Origin: a virus
Virus record (IMG/VR): IMGVR_UViG_3300025012_000956
Location: 1 to 64,000 of that record
Strand: one strand, 5' to 3'
Length of the DNA: 64,000 nucleotides
The translations under genes and the position numbers were made by a program. A model generated the notes under the pieces. It saw nothing but the letters and a program-made list of their open reading frames with translations. It had not been told where the DNA came from and searched no databases. Numbering within the stretch: the first letter of the stretch is position 1; each line of letters begins with the position of its first letter. Shown piece after piece: positions 29,008 through 37,683 of this stretch.

Positions 29008-29535
29008 ATGGGAAACAATTTATTTTTTACAAAGGTTAGAGATGTAAAATCACCTACACGTGGAACACCAGGCAGTGCCGGCATCGATTTCTATGTCCCA
29101 AAGTTTACTGAAAGTTTTATAACGGATCTTGTTAATAAAAATCCAGGTTATTATCACAGGCCAACTATTAATGGAATTGTTATGCATCCTCATGATAGAA
29201 TTTTAATTCCATCTGGAATTTGCGTTAGCATACCCCATGGGTATACTTTAATAGGTCACAATAAAAGTGGGGTAGCAAGTAAAAAAGGATTGGATATATT
29301 AGCAAGCGTTATTGACGAAGACTATCAATCTGAAATTCATTTAAATGTAGTAAATACGGGATTAACAATTCAGGATATACTTGAAGATGATAAGTTGCTT
29401 CAGTATATTTTAATTCCAGTTGTAATATCGGAAATATTGGAAATTCCTACATTGGAGGAATTATATCCTGTAAAAACAGATCGTGGAGTCGGTGGGTTTG
29501 GTTCGACGGATGAAAGAGATGAAAGAATTGTTTAA
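29008..29535 (+). CDS. dut: trimeric dUTPase
   Basis: This encodes 175 residues. It hydrolyses dUTP to dUMP and pyrophosphate. The five motifs are visible: SAGIDFYVP (1), NKSGVASKKG (2), VIDEDYQSEIHL (3), LQYILIPV (4) and RGVGGFGSTD (5). Extra segments lie between motifs 1-2 and 4-5 compared with the usual 150 residues. It opens the nucleotide and DNA-modification block, with an AGAGGAAAG ribosome binding site. Confidence 0.88.
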   Translation: MGNNLFFTKVRDVKSPTRGTPGSAGIDFYVPKFTESFITDLVNKNPGYYHRPTINGIVMHPHDRILIPSGICVSIPHGYTLIGHNKSGVASKKGLDILASVIDEDYQSEIHLNVVNTGLTIQDILEDDKLLQYILIPVVISEILEIPTLEELYPVKTDRGVGGFGSTDERDERIV

Positions 29536-30707
29536 TGAGATGGGCAACTATCATACCGTTAATAGGTGGACAATCAATAGGAACATACCAATTTCTAAAG
29601 GAGGAACCAGAGGTTATTGCTTCCTTTAGACAATTTAAAAATAACGAAAGGTATTTAAAGCAGTATTGGCCATCATTTAATTATAAGATACTTGACAAAA
29701 CTAATATTAATTTGAAATTAAAGAATATCGATTTTATAAATACTTTGTGTCCATGTGCAGGGTTATCAGAATTAAATAGTGGGAAAGACTCAGAGTTAGC
29801 TCGTGGAGTCGAAGCATTACAAAACAATTGGATGTATTTAACTGCAGAATATGTTCTGCAAAATGTTAAACCCAAGGTGTTTTATGGTGAGAATACAGAT
29901 AACTTATTTTCAGGCAAAATAGGATCAGAGATATCTGATAGGTTATATAAAATTGCTGTAGATAATGGTTATTCATTTTCGATGTTAAGAACAGATGCGA
30001 GATTTCACGGGCTTCCTCAGAAAAGAATTCGTACATTTTATTTTTTCTGGAATTCTAAACGAGCTCCTAGTATTCCTATTAATAGTTTAACCACCAATGA
30101 AGATTTAGGAATGTTTTTAGGAGAAGATTATTTAATAAATGAACAATTAAATAAGGCAACTGATAGATTAGTTAACAATATATATTATAAATATGTTATA
30201 AAAGAATTTGGTCAAGATTATAGATCTTTATATTCAGGAATTCCATTGACACTGATGGAGTTGATTGTTAAAAACAATAAGCTACTAGATTTTGAAATAT
30301 TTGTCAAAGATATTATGGACCAAAAAGTTTTATTGAAAATAGAAAAACATAAAAATAAGTTAGGTTATTGGGATGACTCACCAATAATAGTAAAAGATTA
30401 TACAAACTCGGCGACAAGTAGAAATATAAATACAATCCACCCTACAGAAGAAAGAATTTTAACCTTAGGTGAATGGATAAAAATTATGGGAATGCCACCA
30501 CAATTTCTAACATATTTATCAGATAGAAGAACTTCATACTTACACTTATTTCAAAATGTTCCAGTAGATGTTGCTAGAGATGTTGCTAGATATGTCGTAC
30601 AGTTTATAAATGGGGATTTAAGTTTTGCTAATACTGATTATGTTAAGCAAGACTGGGTTACCACAAAATTTGAAGATATAGGTAAATTTAAACATTCGTT
30701 TTTTTAA
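29535..30707 (+). CDS. C5-cytosine DNA methyltransferase-like protein
   Basis: This encodes 390 residues. Motif IV is CPCAGLSE (Pro-Cys), motif VI GENTDNL, motif VIII GLPQKRIRTFYF. The region LTLGEWIKIMGMP and the closing NVPVDVARDVARYV match motifs IX-X. Motif I (IPLIGGQSIGTYQF) departs from the usual FxGxG. The family transfers methyl to cytosine C5. The catalytic Cys is present. Start overlaps the dUTPase stop. Confidence 0.75.
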   Translation: MRWATIIPLIGGQSIGTYQFLKEEPEVIASFRQFKNNERYLKQYWPSFNYKILDKTNINLKLKNIDFINTLCPCAGLSELNSGKDSELARGVEALQNNWMYLTAEYVLQNVKPKVFYGENTDNLFSGKIGSEISDRLYKIAVDNGYSFSMLRTDARFHGLPQKRIRTFYFFWNSKRAPSIPINSLTTNEDLGMFLGEDYLINEQLNKATDRLVNNIYYKYVIKEFGQDYRSLYSGIPLTLMELIVKNNKLLDFEIFVKDIMDQKVLLKIEKHKNKLGYWDDSPIIVKDYTNSATSRNINTIHPTEERILTLGEWIKIMGMPPQFLTYLSDRRTSYLHLFQNVPVDVARDVARYVVQFINGDLSFANTDYVKQDWVTTKFEDIGKFKHSFF

Positions 30708-30717
30708 GAGGTATAAT

Positions 30718-31269
30718 ATGGAACCAAAAGTAATTGTGCTTGAAGGTCCGGATTCCGGAGGTAAAAGTACCCAAGCAAAAATGTTATTAAAATATTTATT
30801 AGATAAACCAACCTATGTAATTCATTTTTCTAATATATCTGGAATCACTTCAGAGCAATCAAGAGAATATAGTTATAAGTTATATAATGATGCATTTGTA
30901 ATGATGCAAGAAGCATATTCTAATAACAGAAATTTAATATTTGACAGGTGTCATATCGGTGAGTATGTATATTCTCCAATATATAGAGATTATTCAGGAG
31001 ATTTTATATTTGAAATAGAGAATAAATTTAAAAATAAAAACTTTTTTAAAAACGTATATCTATTTTTATTTGAAGATTTAATAGAAAATCTTATAAAGAG
31101 AGATGATGGTCATTCATTTTCTACTGAACCGGATGTTAAGATTAGGGAATTAAAACTGTTTAAAGAAGCATTTGAAAAATCTCACATTCATCATAAGTTT
31201 ATAGTGAATATATTTAATTCTCCTAAAGAAGAGGTTAATGATTTTATTGTTAAAGCATTAGGAATTTAA
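30718..31269 (+). CDS. deoxynucleoside monophosphate kinase, thymidylate-kinase fold
   Basis: This encodes 183 residues. P-loop VLEGPDSGGKSTQA, DR-type motif NLIFDRCHIGEYVYSPIYR and a lid-like RDDGHSF segment. Thymidylate kinases are close in size and motifs. Given the neighbouring hydroxymethylase-like enzyme, the substrate may be hydroxymethyl-dCMP as for T4 gp1. That is inference. Confidence 0.72.
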   Translation: MEPKVIVLEGPDSGGKSTQAKMLLKYLLDKPTYVIHFSNISGITSEQSREYSYKLYNDAFVMMQEAYSNNRNLIFDRCHIGEYVYSPIYRDYSGDFIFEIENKFKNKNFFKNVYLFLFEDLIENLIKRDDGHSFSTEPDVKIRELKLFKEAFEKSHIHHKFIVNIFNSPKEEVNDFIVKALGI

Positions 31270-32027: not shown

Positions 32028-32625
32028 TATTATTAATTATTTAATTCAACAGAATAATTTTAATTCTTATTTAGAAATAGGAGTATCAACTGGAGTTTGT
32101 TTCGGTGCAGTAAATTGTAAATTTAAAGATGTCGTAGATCCTGTTAAACAAACGTCTGATGTTAATTATAATATGACGTCCGATGCGTTTTTCAAAGTGG
32201 TCGACCCTAATAAAAAATATGATGTAATATTAATTGATGGGTTGCACACCACAGAACAGGTATTAAAAGATTATAATCATTCATTATCTCACCTATCAGA
32301 AACTGGATATATTTTACTGGATGATACTTGTCCGTATGATGAATCTTGGGTAATCCCAGAAGGAAATCCTGGTGGCTGGTGTGGTACTATATATAAGTTT
32401 ATGATCGATCTTGCGTATAATAACTGTGATATTAATTATAATACGGTTTTTGTACCCCATGGACATACAATAATAACAAGAGGAAAACGAGAACCCTTGT
32501 ATCTTCAATATTCTGATGATTGGTCATTCTTTGATAGATATAGATCTGTTATATTAAACTTAATTTCAGAAGAAGATTTTTATATGATGTACATGAAAAA
32601 ACAAAATGAAACTAGCAGTTATTAA
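32011..32625 (+). CDS. class I SAM methyltransferase-like protein
   Basis: This encodes 204 residues. YLEIGVSTGVCFGAV is the SAM-binding motif I, KYDVILIDGLHTTEQVLKDY motif IV with an Asp-Gly-x-His typical of the Methyltransf_24 type, and GYILLDDTCPYD follows. Acceptor unknown. It overlaps the glycosylase-like gene by 17 bases and the glucosyltransferase gene by 20. Confidence 0.7.
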   Translation: MIKLSDIINYLIQQNNFNSYLEIGVSTGVCFGAVNCKFKDVVDPVKQTSDVNYNMTSDAFFKVVDPNKKYDVILIDGLHTTEQVLKDYNHSLSHLSETGYILLDDTCPYDESWVIPEGNPGGWCGTIYKFMIDLAYNNCDINYNTVFVPHGHTIITRGKREPLYLQYSDDWSFFDRYRSVILNLISEEDFYMMYMKKQNETSSY

Positions 32626-33727
32626 ATTTGGTGGCAGAATGAATGCCAATGCAGATGGTGCAGTTGGTGGTGAGGTAATGGCTGCGATTGATCTATTAGT
32701 TAGAGGTGACAATGAAGTACATTACTATACACATATTAATAATAAAGATGTTGCACTACCAGGTGCACACGGTCAGAATATAGAATATTTTGGCAATGAT
32801 ACTAGTTTTGATGCATTAATAGTAATAAATGGTAATATAAATTATTATGGTGGTGCTGAACCGGAACTCGAGATGAAAAATTTAAGATTGCTCAATTCTT
32901 TTCCGGGAAAAGTTTTCTATATAATGTTTGATCCTATGCTACCACTTCGACAACATTGGAAAGGTGTAAGTAATAAGCAAGAAAAATATAAGTGGAATAA
33001 TAAATATTCTAAAGAAGAAATAGAAATAGTTAGAGATGATATTATTTATATTTCACAGCCGTATGACCTAACAGCAGTTAGAGAAATGTTAGATGGTTTA
33101 GGAGTACCTTATAAGGATGTATTACACTATCCTTTATATAAAATGCATTTAGTATTTTATGATAGGTTACTTAAAATAAAATCGCCATCAGGAGAATATA
33201 GAACTGTAGATTTGACATACGGTGGTACTTTTAGAAATAAAAAACGAGAAGATAAACTTATAAAATTTTATTTTGGGTACCCATGTACTGTCAATGTTGA
33301 GATATTTGGTAAGATTAAGCTATCAGACTTCAATAAGAATAAGATAAAAGGACTGAGAGCACCTTTATTTACTGGACAAATTAAACATAATCTAGTTCGA
33401 CGGAAGATGTCTAGGGCATATGCCACTGTATCAATTGGCGATAAGTGGTATGAAGGTAGAAATCTAGCACAGCGAATTTATGAAAGTATATTATCAAATT
33501 GTATTACATTTATTGATGAAGAATTAGATCCTCAACACGTAGTATATGGAGAAGAATTGCCTAAATTTTATGTTAAAGATAGGGATCAGGTTCTTGAGCA
33601 ACTATTATTAATTAAAATATTTGAGGAAAAATTTGATGAAATACTTGATCAACAATATGATATAGTAAAGATAGATAAACAAGAATTTGTAAACGGATTA
33701 ACTAATCTCATAGGTAATAATTTATGA
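32606..33727 (+). CDS. bgt: DNA beta-glucosyltransferase homologue (T4 BGT-like)
   Basis: This encodes 373 residues (T4 BGT: 351). It would transfer glucose from UDP-glucose to hydroxymethylcytosine in DNA. Long similarity to T4 BGT as remembered: ALIVINGNINYYGG, FYIMFDPMLPLRQHW (Asp as D100), TYGGTFRNKKREDK (Arg pair as R191/R195), RAPLFTGQIKHNLV, SIGDKWYEG and TFIDEELDPQHV (Glu as E272). The catalytic and UDP-binding residues appear kept. Neighbours supply a possible sugar donor and modified base. Confidence 0.82.
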   Translation: MKLAVIKFGGRMNANADGAVGGEVMAAIDLLVRGDNEVHYYTHINNKDVALPGAHGQNIEYFGNDTSFDALIVINGNINYYGGAEPELEMKNLRLLNSFPGKVFYIMFDPMLPLRQHWKGVSNKQEKYKWNNKYSKEEIEIVRDDIIYISQPYDLTAVREMLDGLGVPYKDVLHYPLYKMHLVFYDRLLKIKSPSGEYRTVDLTYGGTFRNKKREDKLIKFYFGYPCTVNVEIFGKIKLSDFNKNKIKGLRAPLFTGQIKHNLVRRKMSRAYATVSIGDKWYEGRNLAQRIYESILSNCITFIDEELDPQHVVYGEELPKFYVKDRDQVLEQLLLIKIFEEKFDEILDQQYDIVKIDKQEFVNGLTNLIGNNL

Positions 33728-33775: not shown

Positions 33776-35587
33776 ATGATAAAAACAGATAAAATAAAAA
33801 TAGTAATATTTTCAGGTGGGCACGGTGCCTCTAATATTCTAGAAGGATTATATGCGTTAGATAAAACCGGAGAAGCACTTCAGATAACTCAAATTGTCAA
33901 TGGACTAGATGATGGGGCATCAGGTGGAATTGTAAGAAGAGTAATGAATGTACTGTGTCCTGGAGATTTAAGAAAAAATCAATTTAAACATTATTGCCTT
34001 ACTCATAAAGGAAACGTGAATATGGCGATTGTTGAATTTTGTGACAAGCGATATGATTTGACTCTTGGTTCTGAATTACATGATGTGTTAAAACTATTAG
34101 ATATTTGGGATTTTCCAGAAAAATTATTATTTAAAGAATTAGCAACTAAATTCTTTAGTGTAGCGAGTTCTTTTAAAGAAAAATTTAATTTCTTCGGAAT
34201 CAATATCTCAAATATTATATATGCATCTATGATTAATAGTATTGGATATGATGAAACGTTTAAGTATTTTAAGAAGTTCTTTGGGATAAAACATGACGTA
34301 ATGTTGATATCAGAAGATAATTTACAGTTGCGTGCGATCACTAAAGACTGGACACTAATAGAAACAGAAACTCCTGGAATAATAAAACATAATAATAAAG
34401 AAAATTATATTATGGATATATTATTTGAACGATTTAATCCTCTTAGTTCTAAATCTGAACATACGACTGCGTTAGCATCAAAGATAATAATATATTCTGA
34501 AGAAAAAATAAAAGACGCAGATTTAATTATATTTGCACCTGGTACTCAATGGAGTTCTTTAATTCCAACATATGCTACAGTTGGACTAGATGATGTATTG
34601 AAGAAATCTAAGGCTAAAAAGATTTTAATAATGAATAATGATGAAGATGGAGATTCAATAGGAAGAACTGCGGGTGATTTACTAAATAGTATATCAAAAT
34701 ATTTAACATTAGATAATATAAATATATTTATTAATAATCTTGCCAGTGAGCCACTTCAGAATATAGAAAATTTTAAAAATAAAAACAATATAACGATCTA
34801 TATTAAGGTATTAGGTCATGGTTTAGCTAGATCATCTAAAACTGTAGAAGAAATATTTAAGCTATATTATAATTTAACTAAACCTGATTTTATATTCTGT
34901 GATTTTGATGATACTATTTATTCTAGAGATCCAACACACAGTAAGATTTCAGAAGAAAATTTGATTTTATTGGATAAAATTTCTAAAAAAATTCCTACTA
35001 TTATTGTTTCAGGTAATGATTATGAAACTATTCACAGTAAACTAATTAAGAATTTTGGAAGTTCTGGTCTAAATAATATTAAATTTGATATCTGGGCAGA
35101 TGGTGGTTTAGTTAAATATGAACAGGGTATACCCGTTATAAGAACAGCACTTTTGGACAATACTAAAGAAACACTGTCTTATTTACAAGGCGACATACTG
35201 GGTTTACCTAAAGATAAAATATTTCTTAGAGGTGATTGGCCAAAACAAGATATAAAAAATATTACGTGTATAGGAATAAAACCTCTTACGGAATTAGAAA
35301 AAACGTTATTGATAAATATTTTAAATATATTTTTTAAAGAAAATCGCTTTTATAATGTTGCCAAAAGAATAGGTTTAACTGGTATAGATATTATATCTGT
35401 TAATAGTGACAAGAAAAAAGTTTTACATTATTATAATTCATCATATGGAAAAACTACATTGTACATAGGAGATGAATTGAGAGATGGAAATGATGAAAAT
35501 ATTTCTAGTGCATGTAATTTTAAATATAATGTTAAATCACCATATGACACAAATATACTGTTACAACTAATAAATGAGGAATTGTAA
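33776..35587 (+). CDS. CofD/YvcK-like domain fused to phosphomannomutase-like HAD domain
   Basis: This encodes 603 residues. The N-terminal part (about 1-360) has the CofD/YvcK pattern: IFSGGHGASNILEGL, NGLDDGASGGIVRR, CPGDLRKN, IFAPGTQWSSLIPT. The C-terminal part (about 370-603) is a HAD enzyme: FCDFDDTIYS (nucleophile Asp), TIIVSGNDYET, and IGDELRDGNDENI, which matches the GD...GND-x-x-I loop of eukaryote-type phosphomannomutases. YvcK is reported to bind UDP-GlcNAc; CofD makes phosphodiesters. The fusion suggests a sugar-phosphate role, next to a nucleotidyltransferase. Confidence 0.72.
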   Translation: MIKTDKIKIVIFSGGHGASNILEGLYALDKTGEALQITQIVNGLDDGASGGIVRRVMNVLCPGDLRKNQFKHYCLTHKGNVNMAIVEFCDKRYDLTLGSELHDVLKLLDIWDFPEKLLFKELATKFFSVASSFKEKFNFFGINISNIIYASMINSIGYDETFKYFKKFFGIKHDVMLISEDNLQLRAITKDWTLIETETPGIIKHNNKENYIMDILFERFNPLSSKSEHTTALASKIIIYSEEKIKDADLIIFAPGTQWSSLIPTYATVGLDDVLKKSKAKKILIMNNDEDGDSIGRTAGDLLNSISKYLTLDNINIFINNLASEPLQNIENFKNKNNITIYIKVLGHGLARSSKTVEEIFKLYYNLTKPDFIFCDFDDTIYSRDPTHSKISEENLILLDKISKKIPTIIVSGNDYETIHSKLIKNFGSSGLNNIKFDIWADGGLVKYEQGIPVIRTALLDNTKETLSYLQGDILGLPKDKIFLRGDWPKQDIKNITCIGIKPLTELEKTLLINILNIFFKENRFYNVAKRIGLTGIDIISVNSDKKKVLHYYNSSYGKTTLYIGDELRDGNDENISSACNFKYNVKSPYDTNILLQLINEEL

Positions 35588-36343
35588 ATGTTGGGCCTAA
35601 TTCTCTGTGCGGGTAAACAAACCAGATTTAATTCTGGAGTACCTAAGGCATTAATGCCTTATAATAAAGATAAAACTATTTTAGGTAAAAATATAGAAAC
35701 TATGATAGAATTCGTAAATGATATTATTTTAGTACTTAATAAAGATAATAATAATACTTTATATGAGGAATATGCTAATAATTTTGTTAGGATTATAGAA
35801 ATAGAATCAGGTCATGGAAGTGGAGATGCTATCCTTCAAATATTTAATCAGTTGAAGACTGTAGAAGAAATATTCGCAGACATTTTTTTAATCTGGGGTG
35901 ATTCTATACAAGACAGTACTGCTCTATATAGAACTACATTAAATAATTATAATGATTATTGCACGGTTCCTATTAGATTAGAAAATGAACCCTATACTCA
36001 TTTTGTATGTGATCATGATAATATTATCAAGTCAGTGGAATTTAAAAACAGAGGTGCTAAATATATTCAAGGTTACCATGATTTTTCTCTATTTTTATTT
36101 AATTTAGTTAAAATGAATGTTATTTTAGATTCTTATAATTTAATGAAATGGTTACCGGAGAATAATAAATATGATACAATAAATGGTGAATTTGAATTTT
36201 TAGATATATTTAACCAATTTAATTATCTAGAATTTGCAAAAGCTGTTATAATTGATAATATAAAATCTAACAATGCATTCAATACAATGGAAGAATATTT
36301 GAAATTAATTAATGGGGTTACAGATGAGAATAGTAAGCAATAA
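35588..36343 (+). CDS. sugar-phosphate nucleotidyltransferase
   Basis: This encodes 251 residues. LILCAGKQTRFNSGVPKALMPYN is the GxGTR...PK signature of NTP-sugar transferases in slightly changed form. IFLIWGDSIQ gives the metal-binding Asp, and the ESGHGSGDAIL loop would contact the base. It would join a sugar 1-phosphate to an NTP. It follows the mutase-like fusion with no gap and precedes the hydroxymethylase-like gene, fitting a donor-sugar pathway. Confidence 0.75.
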   Translation: MLGLILCAGKQTRFNSGVPKALMPYNKDKTILGKNIETMIEFVNDIILVLNKDNNNTLYEEYANNFVRIIEIESGHGSGDAILQIFNQLKTVEEIFADIFLIWGDSIQDSTALYRTTLNNYNDYCTVPIRLENEPYTHFVCDHDNIIKSVEFKNRGAKYIQGYHDFSLFLFNLVKMNVILDSYNLMKWLPENNKYDTINGEFEFLDIFNQFNYLEFAKAVIIDNIKSNNAFNTMEEYLKLINGVTDENSKQ

Positions 36344-37226
36344 TTTTGCAGAAATATATAAAGATCTATTAACAACAATATATTATAATCCAGATCATAT
36401 TATTTCTCCACGAGAATACCAGACAAAAGAGTGTTGTAATGTTGAATTAGTTTTAACAGATCCAACTTCAAACTTATTTACAAATAAAATTAGAAGTCCT
36501 AAGTTAAATTATTTATATCCTGAATTGTTATACTATTTTTTAGGTAGAAATGATTTAGAATTTATTTCTAAATATTCTACTTTCTGGAATAAAATAGCAA
36601 ATAATGATAGAACTGTAAATAGTGCATATGGATATCTTTTATTTAGAGAGAGGAATATACATGGCTGGACAGAATATCAATGGGCATTTAATTCACTTAT
36701 TGTAGATAAAAATTCTAGGCAAGCTATTTTAAGATTTAATAAACCAGAACACTCATATTTAGATAATAAGGATTTTGTGTGTACATTGAATGGTATATTT
36801 CATATCAGAAAAAATAAAGAATTAAACTGTGATGTATTAAATTTTACAACAACAATGAGATCACAAGATGTTTGGTTTGGAATTATATATGATATTCCTT
36901 TTTATACTTTGTTGCAGCAACAAATGTTAAATCATTTAAAACAAGAAAAATATCCTGATTTACAGCTTGGTAAATATACTCATTATATATTAAGTGAACA
37001 TATATATAAAAAAGATTTTGAAAATATAGAAAAAATGCTAAATGAAGAATTTATATCGGACAGTACTCCGTTACTAGTTAAAAATTTAATAGAACCCAGT
37101 GGTAATCCAACGCAAGAATTATATTTAATATTACAAACAGTAGAAAATAATAATGAGTATACAGATTTTGGAGATGAACTAATAAATAAAATAGTAAAAT
37201 TTTCTTTAAGGGAAAACAATGAATAA
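36324..37226 (+). CDS. thymidylate-synthase-fold enzyme, probable dCMP hydroxymethylase
   Basis: This encodes 300 residues from ATG 36324, chosen for the GGGG six bases upstream; 36312 also possible. Fold motifs: NSAYGYLLF (99-107), SRQAILRF (131-138), catalytic Cys in DFVCTLNGIFHIR (C153), MRSQDVWFGIIYDIPFY. The Asn of thymidylate synthase that reads dUMP (GLPFNIA) is Asp here (GIIYDIP, D190), as in T4 gp42. That change favours dCMP. Reaction expected: dCMP to 5-hydroxymethyl-dCMP. Six extra residues lie between Cys and Asp. Confidence 0.7.
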   Translation: MRIVSNNFAEIYKDLLTTIYYNPDHIISPREYQTKECCNVELVLTDPTSNLFTNKIRSPKLNYLYPELLYYFLGRNDLEFISKYSTFWNKIANNDRTVNSAYGYLLFRERNIHGWTEYQWAFNSLIVDKNSRQAILRFNKPEHSYLDNKDFVCTLNGIFHIRKNKELNCDVLNFTTTMRSQDVWFGIIYDIPFYTLLQQQMLNHLKQEKYPDLQLGKYTHYILSEHIYKKDFENIEKMLNEEFISDSTPLLVKNLIEPSGNPTQELYLILQTVENNNEYTDFGDELINKIVKFSLRENNE

Positions 37227-37683
37227 ACAACAGAGATTAGATAAAATATTTATTAATATTGCACTGGAATTTGCAACATTATCTCATTGTGTTACTTATA
37301 AAGTGGGCGCAGTTGCAGTTAATGATAATAGGATTATTGCTACAGGAATTAATGGTACTCCAGAAGGAATGTTAAACTGCGATCGAGTATTTAAAAATTA
37401 TAATTCTGAGACAGATAGAGAAGAACACCATATGTGGAGTGAAATACATGAGCTCCACGCTGAATTAAATGTTATACTTTTTTGTGCAAAAAACGGAATT
37501 TCATTAAAAGGAACAACAGTTTATTCTACTGTTCAACCATGTCAACAGTGTCTGAAAAATATGTTGCAATGTGGTATAGTAAGAATAGTTTATAAATACC
37601 CATATGACAAAGCAGTTGAAAGTAAACTTATAAAAGAATATATGAAAGAAAAAAATATAATAATAGAACAAATAGAGGAGTAA
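37219..37683 (+). CDS. cd: dCMP deaminase
   Basis: This encodes 154 residues. Zinc motifs ELHAELNVI (His-Ala-Glu) and STVQPCQQCLKNML (PCxxC) mark the cytidine/dCMP deaminase family. It converts dCMP to dUMP. Together with dUTPase it supplies the dUMP pool, so it competes with the hydroxymethylase-like enzyme for dCMP. Overlaps the preceding gene by 8 bases. Confidence 0.87.
   Translation: MNKQQRLDKIFINIALEFATLSHCVTYKVGAVAVNDNRIIATGINGTPEGMLNCDRVFKNYNSETDREEHHMWSEIHELHAELNVILFCAKNGISLKGTTVYSTVQPCQQCLKNMLQCGIVRIVYKYPYDKAVESKLIKEYMKEKNIIIEQIEE

Follow-up and report, generated by a model that had tools for sequence, protein, structure and literature searches.

A protein joining a CofD/YvcK-like half to a phosphomannomutase-like HAD half in a predicted phage DNA-hypermodification cluster: a probable sugar-activating enzyme

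In a window of 64,000 nucleotides of viral DNA (positions 1 to 64,000 of the IMG/VR record IMGVR_UViG_3300025012_000956), one open frame encodes a CofD/YvcK-like half joined to a HAD half that is closest to phosphomannomutases (PMM). The frame sits in a predicted DNA-hypermodification cluster with dCMP-hydroxymethylase-like, dNMP-kinase-like, T4 beta-glucosyltransferase (BGT)-like and nucleotidyltransferase genes. Judged from sequence and predicted structure, the fusion is probably the enzyme with which a phage activates sugar for DNA glycosylation, feeding the glycosylation of 5-hydroxymethylcytosine (hmC). The match of both domains to this frame is far above chance level. It is the surroundings, with DNA glycosyltransferase, nucleotidyltransferase and dCMP-hydroxymethylase genes kept across unrelated phages, that give the fusion its meaning, and these were absent from the earlier note on this DNA. 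The fusion and its parts are located in the window as follows:

33776..35587, + strand: CofD/YvcK-HAD (PMM-like) fusion protein, single open frame with ATG start, 603 aa
33776..34861, + strand: CofD/YvcK-like half, aa 1-362 (boundary approximate), from Pfam CofD at aa 9-334 and VIA-align to YvcK 2hzb with model residues 5-362
33899..33970, + strand: stretch with the N42, D45, R54 and D64 codons, invariant in 35 relatives; D45/D64 align with FbiA Asp45/Asp57
34871..35584, + strand: HAD-IIB half, aa ~366-603, phosphomannomutases closest by the relatives' profile and fold match
34901..34915, + strand: HAD motif I, DFDDT; D376, D378 and T380 invariant in 35 relatives
35468..35494, + strand: HAD motif IV, GDELRDGND, with a long, PMM-like GD-ND spacing

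The motifs quoted in the earlier note (GGHGASN, DDGASGG, PGDLRK, APGTQWSS, DFDDT and GDELRDGNDENI) are all present in this frame. An AlphaFold2 model of the fusion, built from eight aligned relatives, had a pLDDT of 82 and a pTM of 0.83. Searching with this model in Foldseek placed YvcK structures at the top (2o2z, 1.3e-15) and, for the second half, phosphomannomutases (6e-10). The matches of the HAD half included the Lactococcus alpha-phosphoglucomutase 4bnd. A mismatch of the predicted folds, YvcK for the first half and HAD-IIB/PMM for the second, is thereby excluded. Profiles and model together bear out the proposed CofD/YvcK-like N-terminal half, with YvcK nearer than CofD, as well as the proposed PMM-like HAD C-terminal half, with phosphomannomutases closest. 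An assembly artefact is excluded by the many other phage contigs that encode fused relatives of full length. No description of it was found in open-licence papers, an earlier mention in phage work on TET and TET-associated glycosyltransferases (TAGT) being possible, and a search of open-licence papers for CofD and phages gave nothing relevant.

The first half belongs to the CofD superfamily (Pfam PF01933, E=7.6e-27, aa 9-334; 94.7 bits against a gathering cut-off of 30). Among the NCBIfam families, the YvcK subfamily TIGR01826 ranked first (4.1e-26), with 92 bits falling below its curated cut-off of 196, and a GAK-system CofD-like family ranked second with the fusion as query. The match to CofD/FbiA (TIGR01819) was negligible, at 15 bits against a curated cut-off of 257. 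Likewise, VIA-align of this half gave a Z of 28.9 with YvcK 2hzb (rmsd 2.6, 289 residues) versus 18-19 with FbiA/CofD. A role in cofactor F420 was rejected, given the negligible cofD profile match and the fact that no F420 gene was noticed nearby. In 35 aligned relatives, N42, D45, R54, D64, R66 and K67 are invariant. By motif alignment, not superposed coordinates, D45 and D64 are the equivalents of FbiA Asp45 and Asp57, which coordinate the catalytic metal (PMC7253369); the FbiA sequence and numbering near these ligands were confirmed via a PDB match. N42 is common to CofD/FbiA and the phage proteins, whereas both aligned YvcK reference sequences have Thr at this position. In GlmR, the residues D40, D41 and N198 were mutated together and implicated in uridyltransferase activity (PMC10128056). 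Only the D40 equivalent is kept throughout (35/35); the D41 position is N in 25, D in 8 and A in 2 of the 35 relatives, and the N198 position is T in 34. Furthermore, GPSDxRK, GTQWSSLIPT, D291 and D293 are clade-specific invariant residues of this half in the 35 relatives. Overall, the CofD/YvcK half is better conserved than the HAD half (mean identity 37% versus 29%, invariant columns 23 versus 7), which argues against its being a dispensable add-on. A stand-alone CofD-like protein of the Acaryochloris plasmid pREC4 (L007:7983-9080) bears the same YDNGKSTG and GPSDLRKNQ signatures and is 38% identical to the megaphage domain (see below); it is a cellular counterpart of the phage half that lacks the HAD part.

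Within the second half, D376, D378, T380, K546, N572 and D573 are invariant in the 35 aligned relatives, and the DxDxT, Lys and GD..ND motifs combined with a IIB fold place it in HAD superfamily IIB. As a single-sequence query, aa 375-599 matched human phosphomannomutase 2 (PMM2) at 1.3e-3. A profile of the 35 relatives matched PMM at 2.2e-17 and Cof-type phosphatases at 1.6e-6 or worse, a difference of ~11 orders in E-value, and matched 4bnd at 9e-13. By this profile and its long GD..ND loop, the half is nearer to PMM/alpha-phosphoglucomutases than to Cof-type phosphatases; VIA-align Z values against HAD-IIB proteins (~14-18) leave PMM (~16) and HAD phosphatases (~17) unseparated. The cap arginines of PMM2 we take to be R123, R134 and R141. 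Judged by the surrounding motifs, R485 (R in 31/35) and K/R509 (34/35) would correspond to R123 and R141, the HMMER alignment putting R485 elsewhere, and R134, a sugar-phosphate Arg, has no clear counterpart in the HAD half.

The neighbouring genes of the predicted cluster in the window are:

29008..29535, + strand: dUTPase-family gene (Pfam 8.2e-13), putatively for nucleotide-pool clearing
29535-30707: C5-cytosine methyltransferase-like gene (Pfam 1.2e-18)
30718..31269, + strand: dTMP-kinase-like P-loop kinase, candidate hm-dCMP kinase (NCBIfam dTMP_kinase 7e-7, under the curated cut-off)
32606..33727, + strand: homologue of T4 BGT, a DNA hmC glycosyltransferase, directly upstream of the fusion
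35588..36343, + strand: GlmU/MobA-like sugar nucleotidyltransferase, directly downstream of the fusion (Pfam NTP_transf_3 5.6e-8; family profile to GlmU 9.6e-18)
36312..37226, + strand: thymidylate-synthase-fold (d)CMP hydroxymethylase-like gene after the nucleotidyltransferase (Pfam 3.9e-16)
37219..37683, + strand: dCMP-deaminase-like gene, named by reading its translation (HAE and PCxxC motifs), with relatives near other cassettes

A class I methyltransferase gene and a UDG-like gene are also located upstream of the fusion. The BGT homologue matched Pfam T4-Gluco-transf (6.6e-14) and phrog_7922 (9.9e-53), and its family profile matched 1bgt at 4.7e-67. Taking E22, D100, R191, R195, R269 and E272 as the catalytic and UDP-binding residues of T4 BGT, we found the equivalents of the first five in 28/28 cassette BGTs and that of E272 in 27/28. 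Most T4 donor-site residues are kept in BGTs both with and without a fusion nearby. Two of six BGTs without a nearby fusion, most likely those of L013 and L014 by column counts, have Asn at the position of T4 Ser189 and Phe at that of Arg191, which suggests that their donor binding may be altered. Among solved structures, the hydroxymethylase-like protein is nearest to CMP 5-hydroxymethylase and T4 dCMP hydroxymethylase; its D194, presumably the position of Asp179 in the T4 enzyme, is invariant in 20 relatives. The C5-cytosine methyltransferase-like gene shares a phage with apparent hydroxymethyl-dCMP synthesis.

A single-sequence scan of viral contigs returned the same virus only; a two-row alignment added a megaphage, and an eight-row alignment opened the family. 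With eight aligned fusions, the scan of IMG/VR gave the fusion in 44 loci. The window and 43 of these loci were compared as cassettes; some contigs are near-duplicates, so that the loci, with 37 distinct fusion sequences, are not independent. In clusters of mechanical ORFs (BLAST 1e-6), where an absence may reflect a contig end or a distance of more than ~10 kb, the nucleotidyltransferase was found in 43/44 cassettes, BGT in 37/44, the dTMP-kinase-like kinase in 28/44 and the hydroxymethylase in 27/44. Four of the seven BGT-less cassettes (L027, L029, L036, L063) have TAGT genes. In L027, Pfam PF20691 was recognised in two proteins (6e-31, 9e-35), and the genes of the other three were joined to them by clustering. 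The fusion-nucleotidyltransferase pair therefore accompanies two unrelated DNA glycosyltransferases, a BGT or TAGT gene being near the fusion in 41/44 phage cassettes. No DNA glycosyltransferase was identified nearby in L062 and L042, and the cassette of L047 is cut by the contig edge. L024, on a contig that also holds L011, has no nucleotidyltransferase in the visible stretch.

Scanning with BGT gave 14 loci, eight of which, including the window's own virus, have the one-frame fusion. No fusion was visible within ~10 kb of BGT in the other six (L013, L014, L017, L019, L020 and L021), and BGT thus seems not to need it. The nucleotidyltransferase-based scan returned the same virus only. In the megaphage LR756500.1, the homologue is full-length (31% identity over 99%) and is accompanied by relatives of the same four neighbours. 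This was the sole fusion in a search of 50,697 phage records, where no cultured phage had one. No fusion was found in the plasmid collection, and a scan of genome contigs gave one ordinary yvcK and no fusion. We rejected Listeria and Staphylococcus 'phage' records and Microcystis phage MaAM05, which have the YvcK half only and look like ordinary bacterial yvcK. Mantel correlations among the fusion halves, nucleotidyltransferase and BGT (r 0.82-0.86) are expected from shared phage descent and were not counted as evidence.

Several cassettes have further genes. In L012/L061, a SIS sugar-phosphate-isomerase-like gene sits between BGT and fusion. A class I methyltransferase family occupies that place in L031 (9192-10004), L028, L037, L046 and L059, and possibly methylates the attached sugar. 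In all four TAGT cassettes a small family adjoins TAGT or the fusion (L027:2398-2844, L029:8390-9154, L036:6746-7246, L063:2646-3104); one member scanned had no Pfam match, and the L029 member has a ParB-like N-terminus by reading.

The full fusion was present in 1/149 genomes of a Bacilli-centred phylum sample and in 4/279 genomes of the order to which that genome belongs. A common bacterial fusion of known function was not found in these samples, the contexts of these copies naming no function. The fusion-nucleotidyltransferase pair occurs in four Bacilli MAGs, always in contigs with bacterial genes (L071, L078, L079, L080). In L071, L079 and L080 its neighbours are metG-like genes, an ABC permease and a GT8-ABC ATPase fusion (by Pfam for the L079 copy). 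In L078 it is part of a polysaccharide locus, where a Wzx-like flippase, GT2, nucleotidyltransferase and fusion are followed on the opposite strand by HAD, SIS isomerase and nucleotidyltransferase-APH genes. These last genes (L078:8359-10829, MAG G181:C10) encode a SIS isomerase, a HAD phosphatase-like protein and a nucleotidyltransferase-APH-type kinase fusion beside the CofD-HAD pair; the last may recall RB69 ORF53_52c, in which a nucleotidyltransferase region is N-terminal. From these bacterial copies, the two-gene pair would itself be a sugar-handling unit, which phages have put beside DNA glycosyltransferases.

From the domain identities, the conserved catalytic-site residues, the gene neighbourhood and its recurrence, we infer the following enzymatic steps. 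The PMM-type half would relocate the sugar's phosphate to C1 from a distal carbon (for example, Glc-6-P to Glc-1-P), and the downstream GlmU-like nucleotidyltransferase would convert the sugar-1-phosphate to an NDP-sugar. The neighbouring dCMP hydroxymethylase and kinase would supply hmC, to which a BGT-type (or TAGT-type) transferase would attach the sugar of the NDP-sugar. The CofD/YvcK half, with its D45/D64 metal site, most likely binds the NDP-sugar product, and may sense or channel it, make it, or transfer from it. Sugar activation is indicated by the order BGT-fusion-nucleotidyltransferase, the two types of DNA glycosyltransferase, the bacterial polysaccharide context and the SIS gene of L012/L061, which would make sense if a distal phosphate has to be brought to C1. 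Since BGT donor-site residues are mostly kept with or without a fusion nearby, a UDP-hexose is the simplest guess for the donor; the kept site would be compatible with a cassette that supplies UDP-hexose or adds a further group. Several points weigh against our reading. With NDP-sugar coming from the nucleotidyltransferase and sugar-1-phosphate from the HAD half, plain supply would leave the better conserved CofD/YvcK half without a needed role. BGT does not seem to depend on the fusion, as judged from the six BGT loci that lack one within ~10 kb, the structural Z values leave PMM and HAD phosphatases unseparated, and one sugar-phosphate Arg of PMM2 is without a clear equivalent.

Conceivably, the sole task of the YvcK half is sensing: by binding NDP-sugar it would control the mutase to which it is fused, much as GlmR of Bacillus reacts to UDP-GlcNAc. 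Such a role is compatible with sugar activation, differing solely by fixing the function of the N-terminal half, and we consider it unlikely. YvcK is indeed closest in fold and sequence, and the GlmR-GlmS interaction is reported to be controlled by UDP-GlcNAc (PMC7525490); the invariant metal site and the clade-specific residues, however, look more like catalysis. The sugar-nucleotide sensor or transferase, coupled to a mutase, that the earlier note suggests is a possible reading in line with the observations.

That the gene pair works like CofC, which activates, and CofD, which transfers (PMC8764529; PMC7253369), seems unlikely. The nucleotidyltransferase would then form an NDP-sugar, from which the CofD half would move the sugar-1-phosphate to a hydroxyl of hmC or of the sugar placed by BGT/TAGT, releasing NMP and leaving a phosphodiester-linked base decoration. 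Such a pairing would accord with the nucleotidyltransferase adjoining the fusion in nearly all cassettes, with the better conservation of the CofD half and with its invariant N42, as in CofD/FbiA and not YvcK, and metal-ligand Asp equivalents; the bacterial polysaccharide context also permits a phosphodiester-linked sugar. Sequence and fold are nevertheless nearer to YvcK than to CofD/FbiA, NCBIfam cofD matches very weakly and no observation favours a specific acceptor. To our knowledge, phosphodiester-linked sugars are not a known decoration of DNA bases.

It is distinctly improbable that the YvcK half is itself a uridylyltransferase, with the fusion combining mutase and nucleotidyl transfer and the separate nucleotidyltransferase serving a second sugar or an accessory role. 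GlmR does form UDP-GlcNAc from GlcNAc-1-P and UTP in vitro (PMC10128056), fusing a mutase to the next enzyme of its pathway would be logical, and L024 shows no nucleotidyltransferase in its visible stretch. The D40 equivalent is kept, but those of D41 (N 25/35, A 2/35) and N198 (T 34/35) are mostly replaced, and 43/44 cassettes have the separate enzyme. Auxiliary metabolism apart from DNA, in which the fusion alters wall or capsule sugars of the host, would suit the cell-surface glycan genes beside the bacterial copies and the work of YvcK in wall metabolism, but is very unlikely, a BGT or TAGT gene being near the fusion in 41/44 phage cassettes.

Sugar activation for DNA glycosylation remains our preferred reading, and a phage-made donor has precedent. 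DNA glycosylation in RB69 (as proposed) and in Thanatos draws on sugar-activation genes of the phage itself, and for Thanatos TH1_063 the function of a UDP-xylose pyrophosphorylase was demonstrated (PMC6024577, PMC12838424). These modules (ORF53_52c, ORF055c, TH1_060, TH1_063) likewise combine a phage nucleotidyltransferase with DNA glycosylation genes and have a SIS-type isomerase, as in the L012/L061 cassette, but as published contain no CofD-PMM fusion. A proposal for T6-like phages has a TAGT placing the second glucose on glucosyl-hmC (PMC13390438). With YvcK/GlmR, a UDP-GlcNAc-binding accessory uridyltransferase, the fusion shares the fold, best profile match, D40 equivalent and a PxxDIR-like motif; it differs in its HAD half, in N42 for the YvcK Thr, in the mostly replaced D41/N198 equivalents, in the extra GTQWSSLIPT and D291/D293 signatures and in scoring under the NCBIfam cut-off. 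With CofD/FbiA, the F420 phosphoenolpyruvate/phospholactate transferase, it has in common the fold, N42, the Asp45/Asp57 equivalents and a nucleotidyltransferase partner, but identity is ~13%, no F420 genes were noticed near it and it scores far under the F420_cofD cut-off. The HAD-IIB enzymes PMM2 and Lactococcus 4bnd share its HAD motifs, long GD..ND loop and, in part, the cap Arg/Lys set, at ~15-23% identity, with PMM2 R134 not clearly matched and no fusion to a CofD-like half.

While donor supply itself is known from RB69 and Thanatos, we found no description of a CofD/YvcK-PMM fusion as its core, and no earlier link between CofD-like proteins and DNA modification in the open-licence literature. 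The fusion is a new setting for the unsettled function of the YvcK/GlmR fold. If our reading is true, a sugar donor of their own would be produced by many large uncultured phages, so that the activated-sugar pool of the host would no longer limit phage DNA modification, or a non-host sugar would become usable. Sugar activation would then probably serve the disguise of phage DNA by base glycosylation.
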